NCBI RefSeq assembly: GCF_030253575.1
Contig: NC_080560.1
Location: 14,174,001 to 14,238,000 of the forward strand
Length of the DNA: 64,000 nucleotides
DNA from: Rhododendron vialii
Lineage: Eukaryota > Streptophyta > Magnoliopsida > Ericales > Ericaceae
Direction of reading: 5' to 3'
Shown here: piece by piece, positions 18,274 to 63,578 of the stretch
How positions within the stretch are numbered: position 1 is the first letter of the stretch
Layout: every line of letters starts with the position of its first letter
Notes under the pieces: model-generated
The model's input: the letters and a program-made list of their open reading frames with translations, nothing else
What the model was told of the DNA's origin: nothing
Databases searched by the model: none
Translations under genes and position numbers: made by a program

Positions 18274-18794
18274 GAATTATTGGGATGTAAATTCTTGAAT
18301 TCTGAAGTTCACACTCTTTTCCAGAATTCACACCCCTTTTCATAATTCACTTTTTTAAAATTTTGATCATGTACTTAATGATATCCAATTAAGTTGATTT
18401 TTTGCATAGTTGTTCTACTCGACGAGCTCTACAAAGTGAACGATTCAGATCATCGGAGCGAGATCGGAGTTGGCCCCAAAATTGGGACGGCAGCCCCCCG
18501 CGTCCCTCTTTCTGGGAGTATAAAGGTGGGGTATTTTGGGTTCTTCACTCAAAACGGGACTTAGGTGGGTAGGATTTGACAAGGGTGGGCCTACACGGGT
18601 AAAGGGAAACAAAATTGGGGCGGCTTGTAAGATGCCCAATAGTAATACTCCAGTGGAAAATCGTTTGCACAGCCTTAAATGAGAAGGATAAGGAGTGGAA
18701 ATAGCCGAGGCTTGTCTCCAAAAAGGGTTGGCACTTGGCAGTACAAGCTTTCATTTCTAGGCTTCTAGCCCGACAGCGAGCGAGAGGGAGAGAC
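18274..18794 (+). promoter_or_regulatory. Upstream region of the UBA2-like gene
   Basis: It includes a partial copy of the preceding foldback arm (about 18355-18445; ACTCGACGAGCTCTACA) close to the gene's likely promoter. No TATA box is obvious. The leader just before the start codon is purine-rich (GCGAGAGGGAGAGAC). Confidence 0.4.
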
Positions 18795-25657: not shown

Positions 25658-25786
25658 GTACCCTTCTCTCTCTTTCTCTCTCTCGCTCGCTCGCTCGCTC
25701 GCCGTCTACATCTCTGTTTGCTTCATATGCTTAAACACATCATGTTTTGGTTCCTAGTAAATAATCACTTCTTGAATGAGTATTAG
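25658..25786 (+). other. Possible 5' UTR intron of the mTERF gene
   Basis: A donor-like GAGCAG|GTACCC at 25657/25658 precedes a CT-rich tract, and GAGTATTAG ends an acceptor-like site at 25786. If spliced, the ATG at 25776 would be removed and translation would start further in, for example at the ATG at 25905. Only sequence resemblance supports this. Confidence 0.35.
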
Positions 25787-27695
25787 GATCTCTGATTTAC
25801 GATTTAACGCAGCTGCAGTTGTAACCATTCTTTTTGGTGGCCTGAAGCATTTTCTCTCTAGGCTTCGACCCAGGGCCGGCCCCGATACTGTGTCCATTTC
25901 CAAAATGGTCACGACCCATTTACATAGAGTTAGAATACAGTCTGTTCTCAAATGGGTTTCTTTGGGTTTCCCTGAAAGCAACGTTAGATCATCAAGAACC
26001 AGTTTTTGGCCAACAGGGTACCACATTGTTCACTGCCTTAGGTCTTATGGAAGGAAAAAATTGTCTCCACCTGAAAAAGGTCCAGAATTTGGTGGATGTG
26101 AGAGGGAAAATGCTGCTCAACTTTCCCCCTCTGCGTGGAAAGAAGCCCAGGCTGCTTTACAAGAATACTTGCATTCCACCAGGAGCTTGCAGTTTGTTGA
26201 GGCGGAGTACATCAGTTGTAATTCACCGTGTTTTCTTGAGAAGTTGTTGAAAAAGGTCAAGAATGAGGCGGAAATTGGACGGTCTGTGACCAGGTTTTTG
26301 CGGTATCACCCCATCAATGAGTTTGAACCTTTCTTTGAGAGCATTGGTTTGAAACCCGCTGAATACGCTCCGCTTCTTCCTCGCGAATTGATGTATCTGA
26401 CTGACGATGCCATGCTGTTAGAGAATTACCAAGTCTTGTGTAGCTACGGTATAGGTAGGAATAATTTAGGAAGGATATACAAGGAAGCACCTGAAGCTTT
26501 CAAATTGGATAATGGAGTCTTATACTCAAAGCTTCGAGCCTTGGAGGAAATTGGGTTGAGCCAGTCTACTGTAATCAAGTTTGTTTCTTCAAGTCCGAGT
26601 CTTTTGATTGGAGACAGAAGTAGGGAACTCCGTAAGGTGTTAGATAGATTCAAGAGCTTTGGGATTGAACATGGTTGGATTCAGAAGCATTTATTAGAGG
26701 GGAATTCTTATGAATTTACTCATATGCTTCAGCTATTGTGCTTATTGGGCAACATGGGTTGCAGTGAAGAGAAACTTCAAAAAATAATTTTTCAGCATCC
26801 GGGGCTTCTATTTGAGGATTCGGGAAAGACAGCGATTTCATTAATTGGCTTCTTGTTAAAATTTGGATCCACCAAAAAAGAGATTTATTCTGTGTTAAAG
26901 AGATTTCCTCGAGTCAAGGTCGGAAATTTTGTTTCCAATTTGAGGAAATGCTACAATTTTCTTGTTGAGATTGAGATTGAGGTACAAGATATTGGGAGGA
27001 TTGTACATTCACACCCCTTGCTGCTTGGTTTGTGTTGTTTAAAGAAACTTGACATCTTACTTGCAGATCTGAATACTGAGAAGGAGCAGCTTTGTGATGC
27101 TGTCCTGGAGGACCCACGCGTGTTGAAGGGTTGGGTTATTGAATCAAGGGTCAAACAGGTATCAAATCTAGGGGTCAAACAGGTATCAAATCTAGGGGCA
27201 GAGGAGCTAAGATCAAGGATGATGAAGATGAAGTTCCTTATGGACTTAGGTTTTGTTGAAAACTCAAATGAAATGACGAAAGCTCTTAAGGTGTTTAGAG
27301 GCAAAAGAGAAGAACTTCAGGAAAGATTTGATTGTTTCGTGAAGGCCGGTTTGGATAGGAAAGATGTCTCAGAGATGATCAAAGTAGCTCCTCAAGTTCT
27401 TAACCAATCAGAGGAGGTGATTAAAAGGAAGATGGATTTTCTTGTTAATGGTTTGGGCTATCCTGTTTCATCTCTAGTGGCCTTCCCAGCTTTTGTTTCG
27501 TACACTATTCAGAGGGTTAAGCTTAGGTTATCAATGTATGATTGGCTTAAAGAGCAAAAGATAGTGCGGCCCAACTTGTCGTTTAGCACTATCGTTGGAT
27601 GCTCTGATGAACTATTCATAAAGCAGTATGTAAATAAACACCCTAGAGGCCCCAAAATTTGGGAGAAGCTCAAGAAAAAGATTTATCCCAATTGA
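25776..27695 (+). CDS. mTERF-family protein, organelle-targeted
   Basis: Single-exon frame of 639 aa. mTERF proteins are helical-repeat nucleic-acid-binding proteins that act in mitochondria or plastids in transcription termination, RNA processing or genome expression. From about residue 165 onward it shows successive helix-turn-helix units with the mTERF signature of a Pro after a hydrophobic helix: EAPEAFKL, SSPSLLIG, QHPGLLFED, RFPRVKVG, SHPLLLGL, EDPRVLKG and VAPQVLNQS. The C-terminus is FIKQYVNKHPRGPKIWEKLK. The first ~100 residues are Arg/Ser-rich, fitting a targeting peptide. The start is uncertain: the ATG at 25776 may lie in a 5' UTR intron, in which case 25905 is the next candidate. 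Residues 459-474 are an exact 8-residue duplication (VKQVSNLG twice). Which Arabidopsis member is orthologous I cannot say. Confidence 0.9.
   Translation: MSIRISDLRFNAAAVVTILFGGLKHFLSRLRPRAGPDTVSISKMVTTHLHRVRIQSVLKWVSLGFPESNVRSSRTSFWPTGYHIVHCLRSYGRKKLSPPEKGPEFGGCERENAAQLSPSAWKEAQAALQEYLHSTRSLQFVEAEYISCNSPCFLEKLLKKVKNEAEIGRSVTRFLRYHPINEFEPFFESIGLKPAEYAPLLPRELMYLTDDAMLLENYQVLCSYGIGRNNLGRIYKEAPEAFKLDNGVLYSKLRALEEIGLSQSTVIKFVSSSPSLLIGDRSRELRKVLDRFKSFGIEHGWIQKHLLEGNSYEFTHMLQLLCLLGNMGCSEEKLQKIIFQHPGLLFEDSGKTAISLIGFLLKFGSTKKEIYSVLKRFPRVKVGNFVSNLRKCYNFLVEIEIEVQDIGRIVHSHPLLLGLCCLKKLDILLADLNTEKEQLCDAVLEDPRVLKGWVIESRVKQVSNLGVKQVSNLGAEELRSRMMKMKFLMDLGFVENSNEMTKALKVFRGKREELQERFDCFVKAGLDRKDVSEMIKVAPQVLNQSEEVIKRKMDFLVNGLGYPVSSLVAFPAFVSYTIQRVKLRLSMYDWLKEQKIVRPNLSFSTIVGCSDELFIKQYVNKHPRGPKIWEKLKKKIYPN
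27150..27197 (+). repeat. Exact 24-bp tandem duplication inside the mTERF gene
   Basis: GTCAAACAGGTATCAAATCT plus AGGG is repeated twice with no mismatch and in frame, duplicating VKQVSNLG. The lack of divergence suggests a recent event. Confidence 0.95.
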
Positions 27696-29700
27696 AAACT
27701 GCCTAGTACTTTTGACTTGTACCATCTATTTAGTGCAAATCAAGTGAAGGGTTTGCATGGAGAGGCTTTTCTAGCAGAAATCTGTGACCGTGAAAATTCT
27801 TCAGCATGATTCAGACATACTATAATGTACGTTTGAAGGGAATCCCCTCAATCCAACCTGCATTACACCAAACAAACTTGATCTAGGCACAGGTAATTGT
27901 GTTTTGAGTTTTAGTGGGCTATTTTCCGTAAGTTTTTTTTTGCAGAGGATAGGTTTTCTATGAGAAACTTCATTCAGTCAACTGAAACGTGTTCACTTGT
28001 GTTTTGATGGCATTTGGACATGTTTACGTATTAACTTTTCTTTGTATCCTTTTCTTTTCCATACCATTGTTGTTGTTTAGAAAAAAGAGGAGCATGCCGT
28101 AGGTTTGAGTAGTTAATGACTAACTTATGATGCTGATTAAGGCAGCGAGTCCATTGCAAAACTGTAACTGATGTCTGCAAAGGCTACGAGCCTATGAGAA
28201 TTGAGAAGTGACCACATCACAGGTTGATGATTTCTATGTGACATATCAGTACCCCAACACCGGTTCATTGATTATATTTTGGTTAAACTAGGTTTGTTCT
28301 CTTCTTATGTGTTGCCTTACTTTTTGGGGCGACTTCTCCAGTTAAAACCGAATAGCGACAATAACCTAAAATTTTTATGACCGGTGATTGTGATTTGCCA
28401 GGATATCTTGGTCCTGTCTTTCTTTTATGGTTGGGGATTGAGATTATATCTCTTGGTGCCTTTGTTTTTGCCTGTGGGATTTCTGTCTCTAATTTACTGC
28501 AATAGGACTTGCAAGAAGGTAATCTGATATGGTTTAATGGTGAAGTAAAAAAAAAGACAAACATTTTATAACAGAAAATAAATTGTGTTAGAGAAAATCT
28601 CTACATAAGCTCTGGAGCTGACTGATTCTTTTTTCCCTCCCTAATATGGTTTAGAGATACCTTACAGTATATCAACCCAACCTAGATATTTAGCTTTGCC
28701 ATAACATTTGTCCTATGGTTTGAGGTTTTTTTCACGTTGAAAAATTTCTGTTACTTTGTGAAGCCAGCTAAATAGCTAAAACCCTAAGCTCTGTAGTTTT
28801 AGCTTTCCCTGCTTGGACCATTGGTCTACGACTATATGTCCGAAGCATGAAGTTTTGGAAATGTATTTTGCGAATCTGGTGCTCGGTGTATTATGTTTGA
28901 CCTCTCCAAAATTCTCCATATACAAAGTGTCGTGTGGTTTATGCTTGTTGGAGAACTCTCGATGCTAATTATTCGTAGGACATGCCCTATTTAAGCAGCG
29001 ATTGACCGGTAATTTTACTGGTGCTTCAGTGATTTTTCATAAAGCTTATATTCAAAGCTTCAGCCCCTTTGGATGGAGACGTTTCATGAGAAGAGAAAGG
29101 AAAAGGATATGGTTTCTTGTGAAATCACTCATTTGGATTCAGCATTTTGGTGAGAAAAGGAGAAAAAGTACAAAAAAGAAATTTTTTGGTTTGCCCTTCC
29201 CCTTTCTCGCCCAATCTCACCAAAAATGGTGAGATTTGGTGAGAAAGGGTTCGGTTTATTTTTTATCTCATCGTTACATGTACTGCTGTGTTTCTGGTGT
29301 GACATTTCCAATGCAGAACTGTGCATTTCTAACCTTCTCCATTCAATAAGGAAACTTTATTACTTAAAGCAATCAAGTTGCATCGAGGAATGTTCAGTGC
29401 AGTAGAGACCAATGCACCTGAAGAGTGTGTTATAAGTTTTCCTACCAGATTGGTAGTAAATCTTCCTGGTATGAGTTCATTTTTTATGTCTTACCATTTT
29501 GAGGAATTTTTTTCCTACGATATCATGGTAATGTGCACATAAATTGATTTGGGTCTCTAGGCCTGTTCTCTCTGATGTCAGTTGGCTTTGATTTGAGGGC
29601 ATGGTTTTACAACAAAACGTCCTTGTAGCTCCTCGGTTTTTGGAGGTTGAGGGGGGCCACTGTTTTAGTGGTATTTTGAGAGCAGCCACTTTGTGCATAT
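27696..29700 (+). other. mTERF 3' flank and intergenic DNA
   Basis: No coding signature. A short GAGAAAGG/CTCACCAAA-rich stretch with local inverted symmetry (CCAATCTCACCAAAAATGGTGAGATTTGG) lies at 29210-29245. Nothing else is recognised. Confidence 0.4.
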
Positions 29701-31295: not shown

Positions 31296-31564
31296 CAGAA
31301 AAGCTATGAGTACCGACCATGGGGAGGGAAACCGTACAGACGGCCGTCGGCGGGCCGTCTCCGGCCATCGGATACACGAAAAATGGGTGATTGGATCAAG
31401 CACCCTACACACCTCGGATGCCGTTGATTCCCGCGCAAGCCCCATCGGTTTTTTTTTTTAGAATTTTTGGACGGCTCGAATCTGCCGTCCGGTGGCCGGA
31501 GACGGCCCGCCGACGGCCGTCGGTACGGTTTCCCTCCCCATGGTCGGTACATATAGCAACTCTC
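31296..31564. mobile_element. Mutator-like foldback MITE, family copy 1
   Basis: Inverted arms contain GTACCGACCATGGGGAGGGA plus AACCGTAC, and GGCCGTCGGCGGGCCGTCTC on both sides. A unique middle reads GATTGGATCAAGCACCCTAC, then ACACCTCGGATGC. Flanks are CTTGAAATC at 31287-31295 and again at 31565-31573, an exact 9-bp duplication. This is the shortest copy, and one half of the inner hairpin is missing. Confidence 0.8.
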
Positions 31565-33750: not shown

Positions 33751-33900
33751 GTCTTGTAGGTTATTTTGCTGCTACTGCTGCAACTACTACTATTACTTAT
33801 TTTTAGGTTATTTTACGAGGGACGGTGAAAATAAACTGCAATTGGAAACTTGTTAGGCTTCTTTTTTTTCAAAAAATTTGTTAGGCTCTCTGTCAACAAG

Positions 33901-34089
33901 GGTTAGTCCGGTTGGTTGGTGAGTTTGCTCCTCATGTATGGTTCAATTCTTGGGGTCACGTCGTAATAAAGTAATTTATGTGAACTCCCTAATCCCGGCA
34001 TGGAGGCAGTCGTTGACTAGACTGAAGAAGAGATTAGTTGAAGTGCGTGTAAGCTGTCTCGGGCACCCCTACCAGAAAAAAAAAAAAAA
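33901..34089 (+). mobile_element. tRNA-derived SINE
   Basis: The start GGTTAGTCCGGTTGGTTGGT resembles a polymerase III A box, and ATGGTTCAATTCTTGGGG, about 40 bases on, resembles a B box (GGTTCRANNCC). The element ends in a 13-base A run followed by AAAAG-rich sequence. No flanking duplication is clear. Confidence 0.6.
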
Positions 34090-34139
34090 GAAAAGAAAAG
34101 AACGCGCTTTCCCCTTTTTGTCAGCACAACGAGAGCTGC

Positions 34140-34380
34140 TTTTCTCACCCCCTCTGACACAGCCCCCTCCCGACCCCACCCCCTCCTTCCTGTTTTACCC
34201 CCTCCCCCCGCGCTCCTTCTTTTTCTTCTTCTTCTTCTTTTTTTTTTTGCTTTCTAATTTTCAATTTTTCCTTTATTTGCTTTCTTTTTCATTTTTCCTC
34301 CTCTTTTTTTTTTGGTTAACTAAAATTTTATTTTCAATTAACCACCACAATACCATATTTAAGATCAACGCTCTGCGCCC
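34140..34380. repeat. Pyrimidine-rich low-complexity stretch
   Basis: Long C-, CT- and T-rich runs (for example CCCCCTCCCCCCGC and TTCTTCTTCTTCTTC). It gives an artificial open frame with no protein-like composition. Confidence 0.6.
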
Positions 34381-34439
34381 AAGCTAATATATTTCTATGC
34401 TTTCAAAAATCTATATAAAAAAACGAATATATATATAAG

Positions 34440-35450
34440 TACAACATTAACCAGTTCAACGAGCACCTTAAAACTCCTTATTTAGTTTAGAGCTCTTAGG
34501 GTGCCCATTGAAAGGTTTTAGAGCCAAAAATTTATTAGAACCATTTAGGATGAAATGATTAGAAAAATAACATCTTTGTACTAATTCAAACGGATTGAAA
34601 ATTAAAACACTTATTTTTTAAACCGTTTATATATTAAAAAATATAGTTAAAAATTAATCTAACTATTTTTTTCCTTTTTTTCCTATATATATTAAAAAAT
34701 ATAGTTAAAAAAAGTATTTCAATTTTCAATCTGTTTAAACCGGTGCAAAGATGTTATTTTTCTAAACATTTCATCCTAAATGGTCGTAGTAAATTTTAGA
34801 ATACACTTATTTTTTTAACTATTTTTTAATATATAAACGGTGTAAAAAAATAAGTGTTTCAATTTTCAATCCGTTTGAATCGGTTCAAAGATGTTATTTT
34901 TCTGATCATTTCATCCTAAATGGTCGTAGTAAATTTTTGGCTCTAAGGCCATTCAACGAGCATCCTAAAACTCCTTATTTAGTTTAGAGCTCTTAGGATG
35001 CCCATTGAAAGATCTTAGAGCCAAAATTTTATTACGACCATTTAGGATGAAATAATTAGAAAAATAACATTTTGAACCGATTCAAACGGATTGAAAATTG
35101 AAACACTTATTTTTTTACACCGTTTATATATTAAAAAAATAGTTTAAAAAATAAGTGTAAAAAAATAAATGTTTTAATTTTCAATCCGTTTGAACCGGTA
35201 CAAAGATGTTATTTTTCTGATCATTTCATCTTAAATGGTTGTAATAAATTTTTGGCTTCAAGATCTTTCAATGGACACCCTAAGAGAATCCTGAAACTAA
35301 ATAATGAATCATAGGGTGCTCGTTGAAAGACCTTAGAGCAAAAAATTTATTATGACCATTTAGAATAAAATGATCAAAAAAATACGATCTTCACCCAATC
35401 AAATTAAATTGAAAATTGAAGCACTTAATTCTTGAATTATATTTTTTAAT
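34440..35450. mobile_element. Cluster of tandem foldback MITEs
   Basis: Three foldback units of one family lie in a row: about 34499-34955, 34997-35285, and a half unit from about 35315. Each arm starts TTAGGGTGC(C/T)C(A/G)TTGAAAG and contains GACCATTTAGGATGAAATGA, AAAAATAACAT and CAAACGGATTGAAAATT or the complement. A 43-bp flanking stretch (AAAACTCCTTATTTAGTTTA) is repeated between units 1 and 2, so a direct duplication was also involved. No coding capacity. Confidence 0.75.
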
Positions 35451-35671
35451 ATAAAAATAGTGTATTTATAGAAATTAAATAAATAAGATAAAAGTAATTA
35501 AATAAAGAAAGAAATTAAAAACTGTGAGGGGGTAGAGCAGGAAAATGGAGGTGGGGCCGGGAGGGGGGAATAGCAATTTACCAGCACAACTAGGTTATAC
35601 TGTAGTAAAGGTACAACCTTTTTTAATTTGTTTGGGACCACAAAAGATAATTTAGCTTGGGAATCACCCTT

Positions 35672-35675
<4 letters not shown>

Positions 35676-35709
<34 letters not shown>

Positions 35710-35716
35710 TCTCTCC
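35676..35716. repeat. CT microsatellite
   Basis: An almost pure CT run of about 40 bases. Confidence 0.9.
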
Positions 35717-35729
35717 TTCCTTCCTTTTA

Positions 35730-36325
35730 TGGTGCATATTTCTCACCTCCCAAGCAAACTTGTGTTCTGGATAATTCGAGATACAACTAGTTGTTTATTA
35801 AAGTATAGGACAAGCAACTTCATTTCTGAAGATCACGTATTGTGTTTTTATTTCTACAAGTAGACTTAAGTAGTACATTTCTAACTTTTATAATTTAAGA
35901 CTTATTTTGTTTAAATTAATATGCAAATAGGAGTTTTTTTTTTTTAGAAGCGTGACCAATATAATTCTGTTTAAGCAACTAGTAGCAGTTGGCTTAAAAT
36001 AACAACAATTGATTTTGGTTCAATTTCACAATTTCAGTATTTTATTTTTGGGTTTTTAATTCTTAAAATCGATGGGACCAGTTTTGTTCATAATTTTGCA
36101 TTAAAAAAAAATTGCATCAATTCAAACCGTGAGCAACTTTACGACATGTTGTTACTTTATAAATGAAACAGATACTCGTATCATATGTTAAACAGGGAGA
36201 CAAAATTCCCGACTTTATCTATATTCTCTCAATGTTTTTCATTACACAAATTGTTTATACATATGTAAGATAAAAATACGAGTAGGTATGCATTATGCAT
36301 TACAACAAACAATGAAAATAAACGA
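35730..36325. other. Intergenic, no gene recognised
   Basis: Very AT-rich, with stops in all frames and no terminal repeats. Confidence 0.4.
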
Positions 36326-36544: not shown

Positions 36545-36948
36545 GAGTCTTGCTATAGGAACCGACTAAACCCCCACCGAAATTGTACCAACGGCCACGC
36601 CGGGCCGTCTCCGGCTACCGGACGGCCGATCTGAGCAGTCCAAAAATTTTATAAAAAAAAATGAGGGGGATTTCATGGGAATCAACGACATCCGATGTGT
36701 GTAGGGTGCTTGATCCAAATACCATATTTTTCATGTATATATGTATATATATATACACAAAAAAATAGGATGTTTGGATCAAACACTTTACACACATCGG
36801 ATGTCTTTGATTCCTGCGTGATCCCCTTTTTTTTTATATATAGAATTTTAGGACAGCTCGGATCAGCCGTCTGGTGGCCAGAGACGGCCCGACACGACTA
36901 TCGGTACGCTTTCGGTGGGGGGTTTGGTCTGTCCCAATAGGTATTCTG
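36545..36948. mobile_element. Mutator-like foldback MITE, family copy 2
   Basis: The left arm GAGTCTTGCTATAGGAACCG, then CCCCCACCGAAA and GGGCCGTCTCCGGC, is mirrored on the right. The two inner halves fold on each other through GTGTGTAGGGTGCTTGATCC. Flanks GTATTTTTT (36536-36544) and GTATTTTCT (36949-36957) match at 8 of 9 positions. Confidence 0.75.
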
Positions 36949-37013
36949 GTATTTTCTCTACCTCCCGAGTGCTTCCAAATGAGCCATACTTATACGTTAT
37001 AGAAGAATATTAA

Positions 37014-37769
37014 GGGCCCGTTCCAGAACCGAAATAAGAACTTATTTTTTGTCTAATAAGAAGCCTTGTTCCAGAAAATAAGAAGGTTGGTACTTATTTT
37101 GGAAGAATTTATATAGGTACCGATCGACCGGGGAGGGAAATCGTACGGACGGCGGCGCCGGGTCGTCTCCGGCCACCGGACGGCCGATCCGAGCCGTCCA
37201 AAAATTCTATAAAAAAAATTGAGGAGGCTAGCGCGGGAATTAACAGCATCTGAGGTGTGTACGGTGCTTGATCCGAGCACCCCTTTTTCGTGTGAAATCA
37301 TATATACGAAAAAGGGGTGCTCGGATCAAGTACCTTACACACCTCGGATGCTGTTAATTCCCGCCAAGGCGCCCCCTCGGTTTTTTTTTATAGAATTTTT
37401 GGACGGCTCGGATCGGCCGTCCGGTAGCCAGAGACGGCCCGGCGCGGCCGTCAGTACGATTTCCCTCCGCCGGCGCCCATTCTCACAGCAACAGTCTTAT
37501 TTTTTGTATAAGGCAACTTTAAGCTCAAAAATCATGTGTTTACGCAAATAATTTTCTTATCATTATGGATCTTGTTTGATAAATCTCATTGAGATCTTTA
37601 ATACGGTGCAAAAAAATTTGAATTTTTTTTTTCATTTACATTATTTTTGAGTTTGAAAATGTGAAAGGAACTTTTTATTTGGATTTTGTGGAATGACCCT
37701 TCTTATTTTTGAATGAGAAGTTCCAAAATAAGTACGTATTTTTTAAGAAAGTTTCCGGAACGGAGCCTA
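37014..37769. mobile_element. PIF/Harbinger-like MITE (GGGCCCGTTCC family) hosting a nested foldback
   Basis: The left end GGGCCCGTTCCAGAA is mirrored by TTTCCGGAACGGAGCC. TAA flanks both sides (37011-37013 and 37770-37772). The foldback at 37102-37495 interrupts it; without the insert it is about 355 bp. Its right half (AAGCTCAAAAATCATG through GGTGCAAAAAAATTTGAA) is clearly homologous to 47600-47790. Confidence 0.75.
37102..37495. mobile_element. Mutator-like foldback MITE, family copy 3 (nested)
   Basis: The best-preserved hairpin of the family. CACCCCTTTTTCGTGTGAAA at the left of the centre is mirrored by CGAAAAAGGGGTGCTCGGAT, and complementarity extends outward through GGGAGGGAAAT / ATTTCCCTCC. 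Flanks CTTATTTTG (37093-37101) and CTTATTTTT (37496-37504) match at 8 of 9. It lies inside the PIF-like MITE 37014-37769 and is therefore younger than it. Confidence 0.8.
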
Positions 37770-43838: not shown

Positions 43839-44409
43839 CCTCCCAGACACTCTCTCTCTCTCTCTACACTGCTTTCTTTCTACGCTAGAAGTTTACGAAC
43901 CATTAGTTGATTCGGTTCTTTTGTTCAATTTATTCAAATCTATACCAAATTGAGTTTTACTCTGATTTTCACTCAAATCAAGGGAGACACAAATTTTCTC
44001 AATTTTTGAGGCTATTTACCCCTCCCAAATTTATAACAATGTGATAAATAAAGTTTTTACTAGAATTTATGCTTAGATTTGGGTTTGTTCATTGAATTGT
44101 TTCATACCAAATGAAGATTTGAGTAAAATTATCAACGGGTTGGAGATGCTCTAATGAAAGACCACTTGGGAGATAATGGTCTGAAATATCAATGGGTGAA
44201 CAATAGTTATATCTGATTTCTGAATTAATGAGGCAAAACCTTGGACTCCCCAATGATGAAATCTGGCTAAATTGAAAAGATACAAATACTAGTAAGAGAT
44301 TTGGTATTAGAAGGGATTGCTGGTTTGGAGATCAACGAAGGCAAAAAAAACATTGGAAGTCGGCTTTGTTCGTTTGAGGGATTTAAAACTCCTGAGTACG
44401 GTCTTTAAG

Positions 44410-44576
44410 AAGGGCAATGCTAGGTACAAAAGAAAAAATATCCAGAAATTACCCGAAACAAGGTATTTATGATCGGTAATAAATGTTAATTACCAGTCAT
44501 AAATACCTCTACAAGTGTATTCAGGGTAATTTCTGGATACTTTTTTTTTATTCATAGCACTTTTGATAAATTTTCT
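44410..44576. mobile_element. Short inverted-repeat MITE
   Basis: AAGGGCAATGCTAGGTACAA, then AATATCCAGAAATTACCC, is mirrored by GGGTAATTTCTGGATACTTT and TCATAGCACTTTTG. AATTACCAGTCATAAATACC lies at the centre. About 165 bp, non-coding. Confidence 0.7.
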
Positions 44577-44890
44577 CTATTTATCTCTCTCAACTCATTG
44601 CTTTCAAAAATTTTCCTTAAATTAAACCCAAAATGAACAGGGTTTTCCAATGGGGAACAGATTATTTGGCTGGCTGCCCTCTGTTCGGATGACAAAAATC
44701 TTCTTGATGATGTAATCATAGCTCTGTTTGGACAGCTGTTTTGTGGATACTGGCAGAGACAGCCTTAAATGTGGTAGGGCCAAACACCTTTTAGCCGGCC
44801 ATTCACACTCTTGCAGCGAGTGTTGTGATAAAGGAACATGGCTCCAACTTCCATACAACTTAAAAAGGCAATCTTGTCTCTCCCATGGAC

Positions 44891-46211
44891 TGGGGTGGGG
44901 AAAAAATCCGATTAAACCGAACCGAAAATCAACATAAAAAAATAAAAAATAAAAAACGAAACCGAGACTGAAAATTTGATGAAAGCATTGATTTTGTTTG
45001 AATTTTTGAAGTAAACGATCCGGTCCGATTTGTCACCATGTATTCCGGAGTAAACCGGAACGAACCGTTTGTGTTCATATATAGGTTTAATGTATGTTTA
45101 CTTAGGAGATGTTTGGGAGGCAACTTTTTGGCTTTTCATTTTTCATTTTTTGCCTTTTTGGCTTTTGAGATTATAATCAGAATGTATTTTATATTTGGTA
45201 GAGTATGTACAGAATGCATTTTACAGTAGGAGTAGTGTTTGGAAGATATGGAATGAAAATGAATTATGGATTGGTTTTTTTTTATGTTGCCCCCGGTTAT
45301 TAATAATGCTGTATAATGTATATAAATAATGTTTGGGCTCAATTTATTTAAAATTTAATTCCGAAATTCTGCTACGTACATGAAACTGGTGTCCCCCGTT
45401 TTTTTTAAAATTATATTTTTATTATTTCAATTATTGTTTGTTGTTACTTTTCCATCAAAAATGTTTTTGAATTATAAATTAAATTAACAATGAAGTTTAA
45501 ACCAAAGTAATGGGAAAACCAAACAGTACAAGAAGCGAACGATTTCCCCACTTTCGTCGAACCTCCAGTCGTCTGCTCCGGATCCGTCTTCTCTCTTCTC
45601 GTGTCTGCTCTCTGGTAATGTCCGTATGTGAGAATTGTGAGGAATTCCAATTGACAGAGATAAACGTTCAAAACCATGGCATTTGTGGGAATTATCTGAA
45701 AAGAGAGAGGGTAGCCTTGTCCTATTGGCATAACTGGATTCGAAAATGGAAAAATGGGAATTCAAAAAGCTCCTTTTACCTCTTTTTCCGTTTTGTTTTA
45801 GAAACAACAAATTAGAAAATCTATTTTACCCAAAATCCATTTTCCCTCTTCCTACCAAACACCCAAAATCCGAAAATGACAATTGAAAAATGTAAAACCA
45901 GGCCTTCCAAACACCCCCTTATAAAAAAAACCACCATTTACTATTGCCTAACTTTAATGTTTCCTCCTACATTTACTCGGCTAATATCATTTTTTTCCTC
46001 ACTATTGTATAGTCTATATGCTGCTGAAGTCACTTGTGTTATTGCTTCATATCGGAAAACATGAATAAACCAATCATACTGAACCAAGCCGAACCAAACC
46101 AAACTACTAAATATTTGGCTTAGTTTGATTTGCAAAATGTTCAAAGCGAAATGCCTGATTTGGTGTGAAAAAATTGTCTAAACCGTACCAATTCGACTTG
46201 TTTACATCCCT
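44891..46211. mobile_element. hAT-like non-autonomous element with nested PIF MITE
   Basis: The left end TGGGGTGGGGAAAAAATCCG, with AAACCGAACCGAAAAT, is roughly mirrored by CCAATTCGACTTGTTTACAT plus CCC and by AAGCCGAACCAAACCAAAC. This is the AGGGGTG-type start with CGGTTYGG words seen at 8998-9805. It is split by the element at 45105-45918. Target duplication not found, so the ends are tentative. Confidence 0.45.
45105..45918. mobile_element. PIF/Harbinger-type MITE, nested
   Basis: The left end GGAGATGTTTGGGAGGCAAC is mirrored by CCTTCCAAACACCCCC. TTA flanks both sides (45102-45104 and 45919-45921). Subterminal (C)ATTTTTCA(A)TTT words are also inverted. At 814 bp it is long for a MITE and has no recognisable transposase frame. 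Confidence 0.7.
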
Positions 46212-46975
46212 GACTACGAAGTTAATGGACCCCATATATACAACTTTTCCTAATTCCATCTACAGGGAACATAGGTTTTGTTATTGAATGCAGGACTAAT
46301 AAAACAAACCTAACTCTTCAAGTTCGGGTTTATGTTCACACGTTAAAAGCTCGCTCCGATCGATTTATTACCTAGACGAATTCTGCTTGAACATTTTTTT
46401 AAACCCTGTTAAGTTTTCAAATCAAATTCAAAGAAGTTACTATTCAATTCGTCCAACAAAATGATGTTTGAAGAGTTCAAGGTGGTCAATATCCTCTTAA
46501 TTAAAGCTTGTTTGACATCAGCTTACCTCATAAACAAACCAAGTTTGAAAAGACCGATTCTAGAGACACAACCTTCAACATAATTTTTGACACAAAATCT
46601 CAGCCATTGAAATAAATGGCTAAGATTATAGGAATAACTTAAAATGGTACACTCCTTCTCTCCTTTCTCCATCTTGTTTGCTTGAAAAGACCGGTTCTAG
46701 AGACAACGTTCAACATAATTTTTGACACAAAATCTCAGCCATCGAAATAAATAGCTAAGATTATAGGAGTAACTTAAAATGGTACACTCTCTCTCTCCTT
46801 TCTCCATCTCACCTGATCTCCTTCCCCCTCCCATCTCACCCTCTGTTTCTCTCTCTCTCTCTCTCTCTCTCATTTTTCCATGAAAGGGAATTATGTGTAG
46901 TTTCAACAACTCCTCCATCACCCAATTTTCTTTCCAATTCTTCTCTCTATAACCCTAATTTCCTCCAATGTTCTT

Positions 46976-47465
46976 TGCCAGATCGATGCTTCAGAGTCTG
47001 TTGACTTCTCCAACAATCACTTGAGCTCAATCCCAAGTGGGTTCATTACTGGTTCTGGAAATCTTAGTGGGTTGAGAGGATTGGATTTCAGTAGGAACAT
47101 ATTGTCTTATTCTTTACCTAATTTTGATGGGTTCTTGAAATTAGAATTCTTGGACTTGTGTCATAATACATTGAGTGGAACGATTAGTTCACATATGGAT
47201 GGGTTGGTTATTCTGAAAATTTTGTGTCTTGGATACAACGAATTCACTGGTTTTGTTCCTACCCACTTGGGGAAATCTATGGTTTTGGGACAACTTGGGC
47301 TTCCTTGCAATTAATTTGTAGGTAAAATCCCGGAAGAAATCACGAATTATTTGAATTTGATTATGATTGTGATTGATCTTGGGCTCTTTGGGTCTATCCC
47401 TAATAGATTGAAAGAGCTTCTCAATCTGCAAGTCTTGATTCTATCTTCAAATTATTCTCTCTTTC
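46976..47465 (+). pseudogene. LRR receptor-like kinase fragment (captured)
   Basis: The frame reads SVDFSNNHLSSIPSGFITGS, LRGLDFSRNILSYSLPNF, LKLEFLDLCHNTLSGTISSH, LKILCLGYNEFTGFVPTHLG, then VGKIPEEITNYLNL and FGSIPNRLKELLNLQVLIL. That is about five or six plant extracellular leucine-rich repeats (LxxLxLxxNxLxGxIP). One in-frame stop lies at 47312-47314, and the same frame continues beyond it. No signal peptide, transmembrane segment or kinase domain is present. The pattern (GNLSGL..LDFSRN, LGKSMVL.QL, NRLKELLNLQVLILSSN) recalls the PXC3-like receptor kinase group (Arabidopsis At2g41820), which I cannot confirm without alignment. It is bounded by the inverted termini of the Pack-MULE candidate. 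Confidence 0.8.
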
Positions 47466-47583
47466 AAGTCTTGATTCAAACAGTTGTTGAAACTGCACGT
47501 AAGAATTCTTCTTCTTCTTTTTTTATTAGGAACTTGAAGTTGTATTCTCTTTTTTTCATTTTTTTCCTTCGTACACTGATTAA

Positions 47584-47820
47584 GAGCCCGTTCCGCAAAT
47601 GAAAAAAGTTATTATTTTTGAAGAAGGCAATTTCAAGCTCAAAAATTATAGTTTTATTAAATCTAAAAATATGCAATATGGATCTTATTTGAAAGATCTC
47701 GATGAAATCTTTTATATGATGCAAAAAAAATTGAAAAATTATTTTTCATTTACATTATTTTTTAGTTTAAAAATGTGAAATAAGCTGTTTATTTTTTAAA
47801 AAGGTTTCTGGAACGGAGCC
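47584..47820. mobile_element. PIF/Harbinger-like MITE (GGGCCCGTTCC family) inside the Pack-MULE
   Basis: The left end GAGCCCGTTCCGCAAATGAA is mirrored by TTTCTGGAACGGAGCC. TAA flanks both sides (47581-47583 and 47821-47823). The interior matches 37500-37760 along its length. Confidence 0.75.
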
Positions 47821-47990
47821 TAAGAGAGGGAGAGAGAGAGATGGGAGGGGGGAGGGAGATCAGGTGAGACGGAGAAAAAAGAGAGGAAGTGTACCATTTT
47901 AAGTTCTAATCTCTATCGTTCGATGGCTGAAATTTTGGGTCAAAAGTTGTGTTAAAGGTCGTGTCTCTAGAACCGACCTCAAGTTTGAAT

Positions 47991-48485
47991 AAGTCCGACT
48001 CATTTATCAGCCTTAAATGATTTGAGTCTAGCCATGGTGTTTGGACCATTATTTTACCTACTTCATGTACCTATTACTATTTTTTTTAGCGGCTTCTTTT
48101 ACCAATTTTAATTACACTCCCTTCCAAAGTTTTGGTTCCTCCCGGAGAATCCAACTTTTTAAAGGAACACAACCATTACTCTTCAAAATATATAAATTTT
48201 CAGAGCTAACCCTTTTTTTAAAAAACACAACTAGTATTACTTTTTGGTTTCTAATTCATTTCCCCCTGCATACTTTTGTGTTTGAATTTAAAATATGAGG
48301 ATGAAGAAAAAATTAGAAAATGGTTGAATTTTTTCTCCTCGACTTGTTAAAATGGACAAGAATTTTGGGACATTCAAAAAACAGAAAGGTGGACCAAAAT
48401 TTTGGGAGAAAATGGACTAAGGGAGTAAAAATATATGATGTAATATGGGAGAAATTTGTTCATTTTTGTCAATTGGTAACACTGT
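47991..48485. other. Intergenic, no gene recognised
   Basis: AT-rich, with stops in all frames and no defined ends. Confidence 0.4.
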
Positions 48486-48499
48486 AATTTGGTCCCTGC

Positions 48500-49275
48500 A
48501 ACATTTATGAATCCTGCCCCTAGTTGCCTTGAAATGATATCGATAGTTTTGGAGATCCTGGTGGCCAGTGCCTCGACGTGGTCACGCGGGTTCGCTGTTT
48601 CGCCGGCAGCAGCGTGCCAGGGTCTGAAGTGTCAGCAAAACTCGCACCGGTGTCGAGTCATGTGCCCGTGTTGGAGGGGTTTTGCCCATCGGCGGTGTTG
48701 TGCCTACTGATAGGAGTGTGCCGGCATTGGGCTTTATGGACAACATTTCCGCAAGGATTTCATCTTGTGCGTATTCCGGATGTGAGCTGGGTGTCCTTGG
48801 ATGCTCTACTACCGTTGTTGTGACTGGCTCTTATGTTCCATCGTTTTTGCCAGCCTGCTCTACTACCTTTGCTGCGACTAGCTCTTATGTTCTATCCTTT
48901 TCGCCAACCTGCTCTACTACCTTTGCTGCGACTGGCACTTATGTTCCATCGTTTTCTACAGTAAGTGTAATTGAATCTGTAAATGATACAGGTGCTCGCG
49001 TCTAGATTTTGGTTGTTTTGGTTTACTCTTGTATTTTGTGATGAAACCTATATTGCCTCCGGGCTTTCCATGTTAATGGATTGAATCGTTTCAAAAAAGA
49101 CAAAAAATACTCTACTATGGAACCTGAGGTGTAAATTGTCGGGTCTTCGTTGTTTTGTTTGGTCTCTGTCAAGTTTGTAGTTTGTCCTTGTTGTGATTTG
49201 GTTGTTGCCTTGTTGGATGGCATCCCTATGATTGTACCATCTTTTTATCAATGAAGTGTCCATTTCCTAAAGCAA
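48500..49275 (+). mobile_element. GC-richer retroposon-like block with LINE-type 3' tails
   Basis: The block from 48500 is GC-richer than its surroundings and has an open frame (48682-49005) with 18-residue repeats (YVPSFLPACSTTFAAT-like, 54-bp period, about 48820-48955). It is followed by TATTGCCTCCGGGCTTTCC, GTTAATGGATTGAATCG and an A-rich end near 49095. A second similar tail (TTTTTATCAATGAAGTGTCC, then A7) ends near 49275. This fits 5'-truncated non-LTR elements. I do not recognise the reading frame. Confidence 0.45.
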
Positions 49276-52370: not shown

Positions 52371-52602
52371 CATAAAATGTGAGCGTTTTTGTGGTTAGAA
52401 TTTTTGATTTTGACAGTCTCTTGGAAGGGGATGAAACAAGTACAGTAGGACTCCACTTCCCCAAAAGAACTCTCACCATCTACTAATTAAAGCCCATTAA
52501 ACTCTACCCATAGCGATTCTCACACACAGGCCACAACTTTATCATCAGTCTCCTTCCCCTCTTTTTTCTATCCCATGATTTGACCCTGAGCAACAACTGC
52601 AA

Positions 52603-55600
52603 ATGAATGGGCTCTACACACATCCACCAGAAATGGAGATGGGTTCAAGCTCTTCCACCTCTTCCAACTCCTCTGATTCACTCAAAGGCTTGAAATTTGG
52701 CCGTAAAATCTACTTTGAAGATGTGGGCTTTGCACCGCCGCCCAAATCCGGTGGTGGGTCGCCGTCATCCTCCGGGAGCGGCGGGCAGCCGCCCAAGAAG
52801 GGGAGGAGCGGGGGCGTTCAAGGTGGACAGCCACCCAGGTGTCAGGTTGAAGGGTGTAGAGTAGATCTGAGTGATGCCAAGGCTTACTATTCGAGGCACA
52901 AAGTGTGTGGTATGCACTCGAAGTCACCTAAGGTCATTGTTGGAGGCCTTGAGCAGAGGTTTTGCCAGCAGTGTAGCAGGTCAGCTAGGTTTTTCCCTTT
53001 TAGCTATGTTTATAGTTATATGAATATCATATATGCATATGTTGTTGTTGATCATCCACTTCTGCTTTGATTTGTGTGGTTGTTTGGGGGTTTTTTGAGC
53101 ATGACTTGGGTGGTGAATAATTTGTTGCAGTGATTTTCTTGTTTTGGTTTTAGTACTTCTGTTAGATTGGTGGGTTTTGTTGTTGCTTATTGTTGATGTT
53201 TTGGTGTTTTTTTTCTATTGTGTTTGGATGACCCTGCTGGACTTGATTCTTGGTGTACAGTGAGGAGATTTTGGGTTTTTTAATTTTATTTTTTGTGCGT
53301 GTTTGTCCGTGGGAATAGGTTTTGATAATTGTTTCTCTTTGGGACTTGTCAATGTAATTTTCTTTTTTTGGGGGTTATGGTTATTGCTCAAAAATCACAA
53401 GATAGAAGAGGCACGAAAATCGGTCCCACGAAGATCTCTACATATTTGTCCAGAATTTACAAGATAAACACAGAAGGCACAAAATTTTCATGCTTTGGCA
53501 AGTTACCTATGTTCAAAGAAAGAGATGCAGGTTGAACTCCCTGTCAACAATAAATAGGGGCTATAAGAAGCCCAGCTATTACTCTACCTGTTCACTGTTC
53601 AGTGGTCCATGGAAACATGTGTTCTATAATGGCATGCCAAACATGCTCCATTGTCATATACGTACGGTAATGATGCACAAATGACACGAGTTTAGAAATT
53701 GTCATCAAGCAGGATTTGGGATTCTTGAGGGCTGTTGGACTATGCCCTTTCGTATAAATAGGGGAGAGTTCTCATTTCCTTCCGTTGCTAATGTTATACG
53801 TCACACAGTTTCAACCTTTCTACACTGGCAACTCTTGAAACTTCATAAATAAGTTGACAACGCGAACAGGGACACAACTAGAGATATACATTCAACGGGC
53901 TCCTATTTTCTCACCCCATCGTTACTTCTTGCTCTATAACTTCTTCATATCATCCTGCTGTTTTCTAATGGGTTTAGGATTCTAGTGGCAAGGCTGCCAA
54001 GAAGTGCAGCCTTAGAAAGGTCTTCGGTGTTGCACATTGTATCATGTTGATGAAATTTCGAAGAGTCTATCTGCATCCTCATGGGGAAGTTACAATTGAT
54101 AAGAAAAGGTCATGGACGTGTCCTGTCTAAACAACTTTTGTAGTTTTGTTATCATCCTTCCAAGGTTTTTGGATCTTCTCTCAACAGTTTCACACAACCA
54201 TTGGTACCTAGTAAATTAACATGTGAGTCCTCTAGCTCACTAAAATGTGTAAAAGTTAAAGCACTGCCTTGAGCCCACAAATCATGAGTGACGAGACATG
54301 TCACAAGAATATCATTGGTGGGAAGTGGTACTGGTTTTTGGTTTATCCAGTATAGAGCTGATTTTTTTTTTTTTGTGTGCATGTAAATCGACTGACTATA
54401 GATAGTATTTGTTTTTAGTGGGATTGGAATCCATTTTATGCTACTTATTAAAGATTAGGTCAATGACTCCATTGGTCTATGTTGTCCATTTGTTGCTTGA
54501 GTCATGCATTGTCACATGGCTTTGACTGGATACTTGTGTCACTATCTGGTATGCACTCCTCGGGTGTATTTTACATACCGTATTACCGTGTGACACGCAC
54601 ACTGAACATGGCTACATACATGCACGAGGTGCACATGTGATTGTGTTTGTGCATGAACTTATTAGATTGGATAACGGAAAATTCAGTTTTCAGTACAGGC
54701 TTGTTTATGAATCAAGATAGGAATTGAGGAAGTCATTGCTATATGTTAGTATAATCTGAGAAGGGATATCATACTTGCAATTGTATGCACATAGGGCTAC
54801 ACATGAAGGTAAAAACCCTCTTAAGAGATAGGAATGAAAGGCCATCTATGTTGTTTCAGGAGTTGCTATTACACGGTTAGTTTTCCTTTTTGCAGTTTCA
54901 ATAGGTTTTGCTCTTGGGATTGCGCATTTCCTTTCTTGGCTGAATTTTAGATTGGTGCCATTTGCTAGTTCTGTGCTGTACCAGTTGTATATGAAATATC
55001 TAGGTCCTCTTCGCATGTCGCAGCTACTCTCCAAAAAAAAGGAGCATACTTATGCTACTTAACTGTAGGCTTAATATCTGATTATGACCACAAATATTGT
55101 TCAAAAATTATGTCTTTAAATTGCATGCTTTTTAATGCATGCGTATTGCTAACCTTTGCCTAGTAGGCGGTGAGATTTTCAATACACATCTCACGGATGT
55201 TAATACGCTTTCACGGATATCAAAACATTTTTTCTGATATCGATGCGCTTTTACACATTATCCACCGCCCTTAGGGCTATGGTTGGCATTTTCCTTAGTA
55301 CATACATACTCATAAAAATGGCTTTACGTTTCCCTTTTCTATTTTTTCCTGCACAAAATGTTCTATATCAAAACCCCTTACCATGATAAGTTTATCTTAA
55401 ACTTCAATTTTTCGCAAACTTTTACAAATGGAATCTTCAAGAATCAATATTGACTTTCAGGTCCGAGAAAGGTACAGTTCAATGCAGAATTATATGTCTT
55501 GAGTCACACAATGGTCATCTACTCAATTCCCTACTAGCTGCCTGTTAGGACTTAGAAGGAACCCCAAAACACAAAAATAATGGATTGGATGTGTCAAATA

Positions 55601-57659: not shown

Positions 57660-59160
57660 AATTTTTTTTTCTTTTTTTGGTACTTCGGAATTTCAATTAA
57701 CTAAAAAAGCATGGACCACAGCAGAGTCATAACAAAGCTAAATGATAGAATAGTCTGAGATAAGTCCAAAGAGCACTAATCTAAAGCCTACCTAAGAAGA
57801 AGGCTATCTTTAATCAAGAACTCCTGTAGGGAGATGGGGGTAGTCACTGCAATAATCAACTCGTCGTTTAGTTTGGCTCCCAAGTGAGCAAGATGGTCGG
57901 CACATTGATTGGCATTGCAGTAAGTGTGGGATAACTTGGTGCCCGTGCGGTTTAGCAGCCCATGAGCTTCAGTTATGATAATACTTTGAGCGTGATTACC
58001 TGGATTGTCTTCATTGATGAGCTCAACAGCCACAAGAGAATCTGATTCGATAATAACATTTGCCAAACTTTTCTTCAGGATAATAGTAAGCCCTCTATAA
58101 ATTCTCCAGAGTTCCGCTTCAAGGCTAGAGTTACAGACAGGCTTACCAACCCTAGGATCTAGTCGCCCTTTGAGTCTCGAAACAATCCTCCAAAGCCTCC
58201 TTTACCATTAGATTCGTACCAGCAACCATCCGTGTTTAACTTGATTGAACCTGTACAAGGAGCAATCCAATTAGCACATTGTGAATGGGGCAGGCCATGC
58301 ATGTGGAGTGATTTAAAGGCTTCCTCAATCTCACGCACATAAGAGTATATTAGCTTGGCACTAATGGTAACCACCGAGTCCATATTATCAAAACTTTTTT
58401 TATTACGGTCTTTCCAAATTTGCCAAAGAGAAGTGATACATAGAGTAGGCCAATATTCCATTTATGCTCGCAGAATTTTTAAACTTTAGGTTCAAATGTA
58501 ACCATTCGGATAAAGGTCTATCCCATTCCCTTCACATGCTATGGCCTAAAGTGATTGCATTCCAAAGCTCAACAGCGTTGGGGCAATCTCTGAACAAGTG
58601 ATCTATGTCTTCGGGGAGATTGTTATCTCGGGCATATATCCGAGGTAACAAATCCTCTTCTGGCACGGAGCTTGTTAGTGGGTAATTTTTGAAGGAGGAT
58701 AAGCCAGATAAAAGTTTTGAATTTAGCAGGTAATTTTAGTTTCCAAAACCATTTCCACCCCTTTACAACTGCTTCGTCTTCATTAACCATATTATAAGCA
58801 GCCGCAACTGAAAAATTCCCACTAGGGGAACCCGCCCAGGTGGGGTGATCAGGCACGTTGGGAGCCAAAGGGAGTTTGATTCTGGAAATGGAATCAATCA
58901 CTCCTTGGTCCACTAAAGGGAAGCGCATATCCAGATTCCATCTACCATGCTCAATAAGCTTCACAACTTTAGCGTTAGAATTGGTGTGATTACCAGGAAA
59001 CAAGAGAGCCAAAAGAATTTCCCCACACCACCAATCCTTCCATATATCCACATATTTACCATCCCCAATGACACATTTCAGGCCCTTGGAAAATGACAGA
59101 TTGGGTATCCACAATGCTTCTCCAAATTGGGTGATAACTACCCTATCTGTATATTTGGTT
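57660..59160 (-). mobile_element. 5'-truncated LINE (zf-RVT and RNase H part)
   Basis: Read on the minus strand. Frame 59114-58623 gives GLKCVIGDGKYVDIWKDWW and NFSVAAAYNMVNEDEAVVKG, then WFWKLKLPAKFKTFIWLILL, the zinc-finger segment after plant LINE reverse transcriptases. Frame 58461-58159 follows with WQIWKDRNKKSFDN and the RNase H start KLNTDGCWYESNGKGGFGGL. Frame 58066-57788 has NVIIESDSLVAVELINED and CNANQCADHLAHLGA, the rest of RNase H. Stops and frame changes separate these pieces, and the endonuclease and reverse transcriptase are missing. The 3' end is an A-rich tail facing the SPL gene (57660-57681). Confidence 0.88.
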
Positions 59161-60430: not shown

Positions 60431-63400
60431 TCAATGGTCATCTTCATCTGTTCCTGGGCAGTTGGATAAGAGTGCCTCCATCGACTCATACTGAAACAAC
60501 AGCCAAACTCTATTCAGTCAAAGAAAACAAAACCAAATCTTTGCGATGCTGAGGAGGTGGAGGGCAATATCGTCAGGTGTCGCTACTTACCCGACATCCA
60601 CAGAAGAGGCAGTATTGATATTCCTCTCTCAATTTCAACAATATGTCTTGCAAATCCTGCATCAATGGGGTGCAATCAACATAAACAGATTGGCAGGAGA
60701 ATCAAAAGCAAAACAATAACAAGAAATATTTGTATCGCAGATAGATAGACGTTCTTTGCATAACCAGGGCACCAAAAATAACGCAATATTTAAATTGTAA
60801 GCAGTGACAAATTGGTTTGCCAATAAACTAAATTCAAGTATTCAACTGCAGAGGTAGCCCTATGCGGGCTAGAATAAGAAAATGCATAGCTCTGTACAGT
60901 AGATTAGATCCTCAAATACATCTTCGTGCTTCAACAGAATATTGGACAGCTCTTCGATAATTTGCTTTCTTTTCAGTAAGAACAATTCACTCCATTTATT
61001 TCCACCGGCTATGAGCATCGACTCGGACTATATATCCGAGGGGACCAAATATTCATTGTGTGGTTAAAATTATGACATTTCGGATTGAATATTCATTCAA
61101 ATCCTCGGATATATAATCATCAAATTGGACTATAAAAATTCTTACAGGACCGCCAGAACTGTTAAGCTGCAGTCATTGGTTTTTGCACCCATTGGCCCAT
61201 TTTCATCCACTTCCAATTCATAAACTGGGGCATGTGATTTATAAAGAAAGACAGAAAGAGAGTTAACTGCATTCCAAGATCGAAAATTACAAAAAAAATA
61301 AACAAAAACCCTTGATGACGGGATAAGAATTTGAATCCAGAAGAAAGTTTGCCGTCAAGAATCAACAGTAACTAGAATCTATACTAGCTTATCAGGTAAT
61401 CTAGATACGGTCTTAGGATCAAGCCTCGGTCATGCTTTTTTACCAGGTTGAAGGAATCTCAAGCAAGGGGAGCCTACAACTCATCTTGTAGCCCCACTCC
61501 CTAAACCCAAAAAGGCAAAAACAAACAGGAAAAAGAGAACGAGTATAGCAACTTATGAGGCAGGCAAACCTCGACTTTTGCTTAGCCAAGGAATGAGATT
61601 TATTCGCACACACGAAGAAACATCATCTCCAGAGAAGTACTACCATGAATAGGAATTGAAGTTCAGAATCATAGAATGCAGTTCCAGTTGCATCTGATTT
61701 GAAATTCGAGTACAATGTAATTTTGTTGATTGGATGACCACAAAATTAGCGCAAGAAGGGGAAAGGGGTTCCATCACCAAGCTTCTTTCCGAAATATCAA
61801 TGAAACAACTAATCATACAGTTTGGCAAGACAGATGGTTCACAAACACTTTGAAAGTTGCTAGCTTCCAACTCTTTCAAAGATCTATGGAACTCATAGGA
61901 TACATGGGAATTATATTTTCCTGTAGCTACAAATTTCCAGAACTGGCCCCAATGCCAAGCTCATTTCCAAGTGGCAACCATGGTGTCGAAATTTTCTGAG
62001 GTTAAGAGATCTTGGAACTTCTTTCTAGAGGTTTAAGGACCACTCAGTGACCTGCTAGTAGATTCCAACAATCTTAACCACACGAGGCCAAGTCATATAA
62101 CATAAGATGCCACTTTCCTTTACCAGATCACCATTGAACCATTGAACTGAACCGAAATAAAATGTTGATCACCCTCACCACTCATCAACAACTTTATCCA
62201 CTTTATCGAGTTTTAGTGACAGAGAACTCATGTTTTCCCTATTCGTGAGCCAGAGCTAATGTGGAAGGCTATCCAAAACCAATATAGCTACCAAAGCTTC
62301 ATTGCCATGAACCTTTGATTCTATTCATCGTAACATAACAAAACCAACCCGACATACTGATTGACAACACAGCTGACCATGGCATCTTTTCCTTCGTGGA
62401 CGGGTTTTCGGAAGAATGATGGTTCAACTTGTCAACAACCTTATTTCATGACATGATGACATCAACTCCCAATGTCAAATCCAATCTTCCAAGACAATAA
62501 ATTGAAGCACACACACCAACATCATCAAACTAGTAGTCAAATCAACAACATTGTTCCTTCCCATGATCAAAGACTGAGATACAAATCCAAAGCCCAATAT
62601 TGAAGATTTAATTGATCGAACATTGACAATACAAAGAGCTAAAATTAGCACAAAAAACACATGTACTTTACACTTTTACATACAGAAGTAAATATGCAAG
62701 TCAGAAAGGCAAGCACAAGAGCTTAAAAACAATATACAAGAGCACAATTAGGTAAAGCATATACAAAAGAACACATAATTATATACCGAGAACAAACGAT
62801 GGTTGTGGTTGAATAAGTAACCATACCTCTTCTGTTATCACCTCCTCCTCTTCCTCCTCTTCATCTCCACCATCCTCTTCGTCCTTCTCCTCCGCCTCCT
62901 CCACCACCACCTCCTTATTCTCCAACTGCTCGAACGCCGCCTTCGCCTTGTGATAATTCACCACAACTCTCCTACTCCTCCACTGCTCCTTCTGCCGCCA
63001 CCCGAAATCCGCCATCAACTCCTCCTCCTTCCTCTTATCTCTCTCCATCATTTCCTCCTCCATCCTCCTCTTCTCCTTCCTAGGGTCCTCCCGGCCGATC
63101 CCAGCCCGGGTCCGCCTGATCTCCACCCCCACGGGCTCGGCCAGGCCGGAACCCTCCTTCCCCAGCGCGGAACCCGGGGTGTAACCCATTTGTTTCAACA
63201 GCTTAAACCCAATGTTGGATTGGGGAATAGCTGATTCTAGGTTTGCTAGGGTTTGTTTGTCCTCTTCCTCTTGCTTTTGCTCTCTCTTGAGCTTGCGTTG
63301 TTCTTGCCAGTTTAGGGTTTTGGGTTTCTTGTTTGAAGATTGGGGGACATGGGTTTTGCTGATTGAGTCCTGAAAGTAAAGAGAAATTGGGTTTTTACAT

Positions 63401-63578
63401 GGTTTATTAGAAACATAGTAATTACATGTCAATATATCTAGTTGTATGTAAGTTTGGAACTGACCTTTTTTGAAGATTTTGGTGGATCAGTGGTTTCTGG
63501 GGGAAGGAACAGAGAGAGGTCTCCCATGTAATCATCTTCGGCTTCATCGGTCGTCTGGTTATTTGTTGCTTCCGCCAT
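60431..63578 (-). CDS. GPATCH11: G-patch domain protein, GPATCH11 type
   Basis: Nuclear protein with a G-patch, a motif that binds and activates DEAH-box RNA helicases. Coding exons in transcript order: 63578-63465, 63369-62827, 60656-60591, 60490-60431; 783 nt encode 260 aa. Residues 1-38 are acidic (DEAEDDYMGDL). The G-patch (about 88-134) reads NIGFKLLKQMGYTPGSALGK, then GLAEPVGVEIRRTRAGIGRE. A charged helical stretch follows (about 135-185), then a Glu/Asp tract (about 190-219). The C-terminal DUF4187-like part, split over exons 3 and 4, reads LQDILLKLREEYQYCLFCGC, then ESMEALLSNCPGTDEDDH, with Cys pairs that could hold a metal. This domain order matches animal GPATCH11/CCDC75. Intron 2 is 2.2 kb, and retention after exon 2 would add VWLLI and more. 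Human GPATCH11 is linked to splicing; a plant role is inferred. Confidence 0.93.
60657..62826 (-). other. Intron 2 of the G-patch gene
   Basis: A 2.17-kb GT-AG intron. It holds a small inverted pair (CGGACTATATATCCGAGG and CCTCGGATATATAATC, 61022-61110). No nested gene was recognised. Confidence 0.55.

Follow-up and report, generated by a model that had tools for sequence, protein, structure and literature searches.

Mutator-like elements (MULEs) usually carry inverted ends (TIRs) of 100-500 bp and are flanked by target duplications (TSDs) of 9-11 bp (Ferguson and Jiang 2012, PMC3310237). In section 3.1 of this paper the tomato types 1 and 5 are named as Pack-MULEs, and its text on solo-TIR MULEs describes elements in which one extra, near-full TIR stands in tandem at one end and in which the TSD lies outside the outer termini. 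The mechanism of TIR duplication in MULEs is called unclear there (section 4.2). A second system of interest are the animal Pack-TIRs, for which a transposition-independent gap filling is set out in the relevant part of Tan et al. 2021 (PMC8277862): template-switch repair adds non-TE DNA to the interior of an element after its insertion.

Here we describe a candidate Pack-MULE of about 1.4 kb (46551-47979) in a stretch of 64,000 nucleotides from Rhododendron vialii (NC_080560.1, 14,174,001-14,238,000, forward strand; GCF_030253575.1). This whole stretch is called the window, and all positions refer to it. The element resembles other Pack-MULEs in its long TIRs, its 10-bp TSD, its host-type gene piece and its size, and none of its longer ORFs matches a transposase; it differs from them in a doubled left terminus and a nested MITE-like repeat. 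Because of the extra terminus it can be grouped with the solo-TIR MULEs, with which it shares, as far as the text of PMC3310237 describes them, both the tandem TIR at one end and the placement of the TSD. Compared with the tomato types 1 and 5, it has both a gene fragment and, at one end, an additional TIR, which by the text of that paper is the layout of type 3. The features of the element are as follows:

46540-46549, unstranded: left TSD CAAGTTTGAA, exact copy of the right flank
46545-46674, + strand: duplicated unit, first copy, which starts within the left TSD and includes the flank/TSD bases TTGAAA
46551-46674, + strand: outer left TIR (copy 1), inverted match to the right arm and tandem copy of 46688-46809
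46675-46681, unstranded: junction filler between the TIR copies, overlapped by the 8-mer CTTGTTTG (46673-46680)
46688-46860, + strand: inner left TIR (copy 2), its inner part CT-rich, score 159 with the right arm
46891-46911, + strand: inner inverted repeat, left arm, 19 of 21 bases complementary to 47482-47502
46982-47467, + strand: LRR gene fragment, about six plant-type units (counted by eye), from translation, Pfam and PDB
47482-47502, - strand: inner inverted repeat, right arm, which pairs with 46891-46911
47584-47820, unstranded: MITE-like repeat of about 237 bp on the inner side of the right arm, with a relative near 37.5 kb
47823-47979, - strand: right TIR, inverted match to the left arms
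47980-47989, unstranded: right TSD CAAGTTTGAA, exact copy of the left flank

The opposed ends of the element are formed by AGACCGATTCTAGAGACA at 46551-46568 (+) and AGGTCGGTTCTAGAGACA at 47962-47979 (-). The best inverted alignment pairs the inner left copy with the right arm and involves 164 columns with 131 matches, 19 mismatches and 14 gap columns, so that 33 of 164 columns (20%, gaps counted) distinguish the right arm from this closest counterpart. Its score of 159 was reached by none of 500 dinucleotide shuffles (37 at most), and when 194 other window positions of similar spacing were used as control, the highest score was 97 (three ranged from 83 to 97). For the outer left TIR and the right arm we counted 93 matches, 16 mismatches and 11 gap columns in 120 columns. 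Both inverted termini proposed in an earlier note on this DNA are thus present. The same note gave their length as roughly 160 bp or more, but the left end that it quoted (46551) and the sequence TCACCTGATCTCC (46809-46821) belong to separate tandem copies and not to a single arm of that length. Outside the termini, 46540-46549 and 47980-47989 are identical at 10 of 10 bases, and such a match was found at none of 60341 other window sites at this spacing. If the element is taken to start at 46551, the TSD becomes 11 bp with one mismatch, which is the 10/11 identity of the flanks as originally placed. Either version lies within the MULE range of 9-11 bp, and the TIR length (164 alignment columns) lies within that of 100-500 bp. 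Elsewhere in the window, the TIR core TTCTAGAGACA has a single match, at 6722, with 3 mismatches; in published text the matches listed for it were unrelated by title. A 34-base TIR pattern had no relative in a collection of viral contigs, which is not a plant collection.

Between the termini, a piece of an LRR gene can be read in one frame. In this frame (+46862) the 163 codons of 46976-47465 include a single stop, the nonsense codon at 47312-47314, and each of the five other frames has 6 to 15 stops. Only 2 of 1000 shuffles contained a plus-strand frame with at most 1 stop. When the whole piece was searched in Pfam with X at the stop, LRR_1 was matched at E 2.8e-09 and other LRR models remained under their cut-offs. 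The frame before the stop matched LRR_1 (2.1e-08) as well as LRR_4 (27.8 bits) and LRR_8 (27 bits; cut-offs 27), and the frame after it (47315-47599), taken alone, matched no Pfam family. One of the units is short by one residue, which appears as a one-residue gap in the PDB alignments. Among the best 60 of 152 PDB matches, plant LRR receptor kinases are on top, with GSO1 first (E 6.3e-63) and FLS2 also present. These relatives match across many repeats and therefore do not indicate a particular parent. The parent was probably an LRR receptor gene, either for a receptor kinase or for an LRR receptor-like protein; its subfamily may be that of an Arabidopsis At1g34420-like LRR kinase, for which we make no claim. 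The earlier description of LRR units in one frame with a single stop fits these data. It had spoken of an LRR receptor kinase, and here the LRR part is confirmed by the matches but no kinase match was obtained in the ORFs of the element. Since the piece consists of LRRs only, the word 'kinase' can stand in that label only as a presumption. When a 110-aa section of the LRR fragment was compared with two collections that are not plant, 14 pattern stretches were found in viral contigs and 94 in prokaryote genome contigs, none of which was confirmed.

The window contains 148 ORFs of at least 75 aa, and 30 of them (20 at 44092-49002 and 10 elsewhere) were scanned with profiles. Among the 20 ORFs at 44092-49002, the one at 46901-47311 is the sole LRR match; no kinase or transposase was matched in this set, and three other ORFs gave chance-level matches below the cut-offs. 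A tblastn search of the window with the fragment gave elsewhere one chance-level match (E 9.5). LRRs are thus found at 46982-47467 and were not seen beyond the termini in the stretch examined. Six ORFs of at least 75 aa overlap the element and none matches a transposase, so that by ORFs of this size the element is non-autonomous. Other parts of the window carry an apparently single-exon ORF of the mTERF family (639 aa, 25776-27692, +), an H/ACA snoRNA, snoR100 (29515-29619, +, 67.4 bits), which is the only Rfam match of the window at the gathering threshold, and a G-patch domain reading frame (62782-63486, -). At 52579-53067 (+) an SBP match stops at profile position 48 of 75, like an exon end, and this is probably an early exon of a gene for an SBP-box transcription factor. 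RVT_3 and zf-RVT in separate frames at 57791-59159 (-) are probable remnants of a non-LTR retrotransposon.

Taken together, the long TIRs, the exact TSD, the lack of a transposase match and the restriction of the LRRs to the interior make a Pack-MULE the best reading, and we consider it very probable that this is a non-autonomous Mutator-like transposon with a gene scrap. The earlier note was right about the kind of element, judged by these same features, but it missed the doubled end and the MITE-like repeat. An ancestor with long TIRs would have taken up a piece of some 0.5 kb from a gene for an LRR receptor; transposase from another element would then have acted on the TIRs and inserted the element here, where the 10-bp target duplication was left. 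Among the papers matched by a search, judged by title and the start of the abstract, none dealt with a Pack-MULE with leucine-rich repeats and a receptor-like kinase. Rival accounts of how the fragment was captured are neighboring insertions (PMC8903248) and gap filling of the kind outlined in PMC8277862.

The LRR piece is bracketed by the short inner inverted repeat, which had been overlooked in the first reading of its surroundings. Its score was matched by 2 of 2965 random pairs and by none of 2000 shuffles. The TIRs may originally have reached inward as far as this repeat, and if so, the capture would be confined to 46912-47481. We also tried TIRs that run smoothly inward past the MITE-like repeat and did not retain them: excision of that repeat gave a score of 169 versus 173 uncut. 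Since the arms were still not joined to the inner repeat after excision, it is not certain that the TIRs extended so far.

The MITE-like repeat, which had likewise escaped notice when the right arm was first read, is probably a separate insertion. Its relative in the window consists of two parts, 37501-37680 (77.5% over 182) and 37737-37768 (90.6% over 32). Tourist-like MITEs have short TIRs and TAA/TTA target duplications. TAA is found on either side of the repeat (47581-47583 and 47821-47823), which would suit such an element, but the motif CCTAAG also follows the related copy, so that TAA may be part of the repeat itself. In local alignment its two ends have just CCGTTCC in common, and because of these poor inverted ends we call it a Tourist-like (PIF/Harbinger) element only tentatively. 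The relative at 37501 comes after a repeat family at 36568-37475, which is also present at 31303-31563; at both places there are several copies in both orientations, 79-87% alike. Elsewhere in the window, direct and mutually inverted repeats are densely clustered at 34455-35453; of the 22 inverted pairs in 33900-36200, the 5 longest have arms of 84-165 nt. Two long palindrome-like segments are present at 8599-8956 and 17829-18281, each matching its own reverse complement at 84-85% identity.

The coding capacity of the element appears to be low. It contains no ORF of at least 120 aa with an ATG, GTG or TTG start. Given this and the stop in the LRR piece, translation of a receptor is unlikely, and by its reading frames the piece is most likely not translated as such. 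The element is probably inert. In a predicted single-strand fold, calculated for the native sequence only, its ends pair into a long stem. A transcript, if made, is thus predicted to take the form of a long hairpin, from which small RNAs directed against the parent could arise. Pack-MULEs are a source of small RNAs against their parent genes.

At the left end, two tandem copies of an approximately 130-bp unit are present (46545-46674 and 46682-46809, 93% over 130 columns, E 4.8e-49), and the element thus bears three termini, two left copies and one right. The two left TIR copies lie head to tail, 137 bp apart from start to start, with about 7 bases between them. The right arm aligns better with the inner copy starting at 46688 than with the end at 46551. 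In the first reading this doubling was overlooked, and the outer end of copy 1 and the inner end of copy 2 were taken as one arm. The layout is that of multiple-TIR MULEs, in which the internal and external TIRs are alike over 100 bp or more, stand closer together than 600 bp and are accompanied by a TSD of 9-11 bp. When both left copies and the right arm are aligned together, 28 columns (18 substitutions and 10 gap columns) separate the right arm from both left copies; 4 columns are peculiar to copy 1 and 4 to copy 2, the latter being 2 substitutions plus a deletion of 2 bp, and a single column is different in all three. The 28 shared versus 4 and 4 unique columns indicate that the source of the second left copy was the left arm, which by then already differed from the right one. 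The left copies differ by 7 substitutions, and at plant rates the doubling is perhaps a few million years old, which is a rough figure.

The bases next to the inner copy bear on the timing of this event. TTGAAA precedes the inner TIR copy and also the outer one (46545-46550); five of these bases are inside the 10-bp TSD and the sixth is the ambiguous base 46550. In addition, the native flank on the left contains, at 46507, a second copy of the junction 8-mer CTTGTTTG. A flank match of at least 6 bases occurred at random at 56 of 62241 sites and 634 of 62286 random 15-mers (about 1%) shared a word as long as CTTGTTTG with the left flank, where it has to be considered that both matches were spotted first and tested afterwards, in one case. 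With the latter frequency the filler match by itself is weak, but TTGAAA and CTTGTTTG together suggest that the duplication took place at the present site, after landing. We slightly favor the explanation that the additional terminus was left behind by repair: following a break at the left end after landing, both the TIR and part of the fresh TSD would have been copied by template switching. In this step the left end would have been doubled in tandem with six adjoining bases, five of them from the TSD. Such an event would be similar to the gap filling of animal Pack-TIRs in that template-switch repair adds DNA after insertion, but in the account of PMC8277862 this is non-TE DNA added internally, whereas here the element's own terminus and flank would have been added.

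An alternative, which we regard as rather unlikely, is that the Pack-MULE landed with three termini already, like the solo-TIR and tandem-TIR MULEs of tomato, and that the inner TTGAAA is there by chance or as a remnant of an older site. MULEs with an extra solo TIR and their own TSD are indeed known from tomato, rice and maize, as stated in PMC3310237. However, the low frequency of 6-base flank matches given above argues against chance, and the internal TIRs of the tomato elements are presented in that text as having no recognizable TSD next to them, whereas here bases of the outer TSD adjoin the inner copy. More doubtful still is that two elements of the same family inserted side by side and trapped the DNA between them, the doubled end being the remnant of the second one. 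Neighboring insertions have been proposed for Pack-TYPE elements, and the part of PMC8903248 dealing with local pairs gives same-orientation counts of 12/15 for maize hAT and 12/13 for maize PIF. At our locus the narrow junction holds neither a right terminus nor long host DNA, and the left copies are about equidistant from the right arm (4 versus 4 unique, 28 shared columns) and thus resemble one arm copied. A nested insertion of a second element was considered and then set aside. Finally, a decayed LRR gene or pseudogene in its original place, with repeats inserted on both sides, would account for the stop and the short unit in the LRR frame and for the presence of a second (MITE-like) repeat, but it is highly improbable since the ends are inverted copies of each other with an exact 10-bp duplication shared outside both, and since no LRR or kinase match was obtained outside them (20 ORFs, 44092-49002).

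Pack-MULEs are a recognized source of shuffled gene pieces, and the element described here adds one slightly unusual example. The useful part of the find is its doubled left end, for which we prefer repair after landing. If this were true in general, solo-TIR MULEs would be products of repair in place, not pre-formed elements, and this would explain why they are rarely amplified. A terminus that bears a piece of the element's own TSD is a simple marker of such late doubling, and its occurrences can be counted over many plant genomes.
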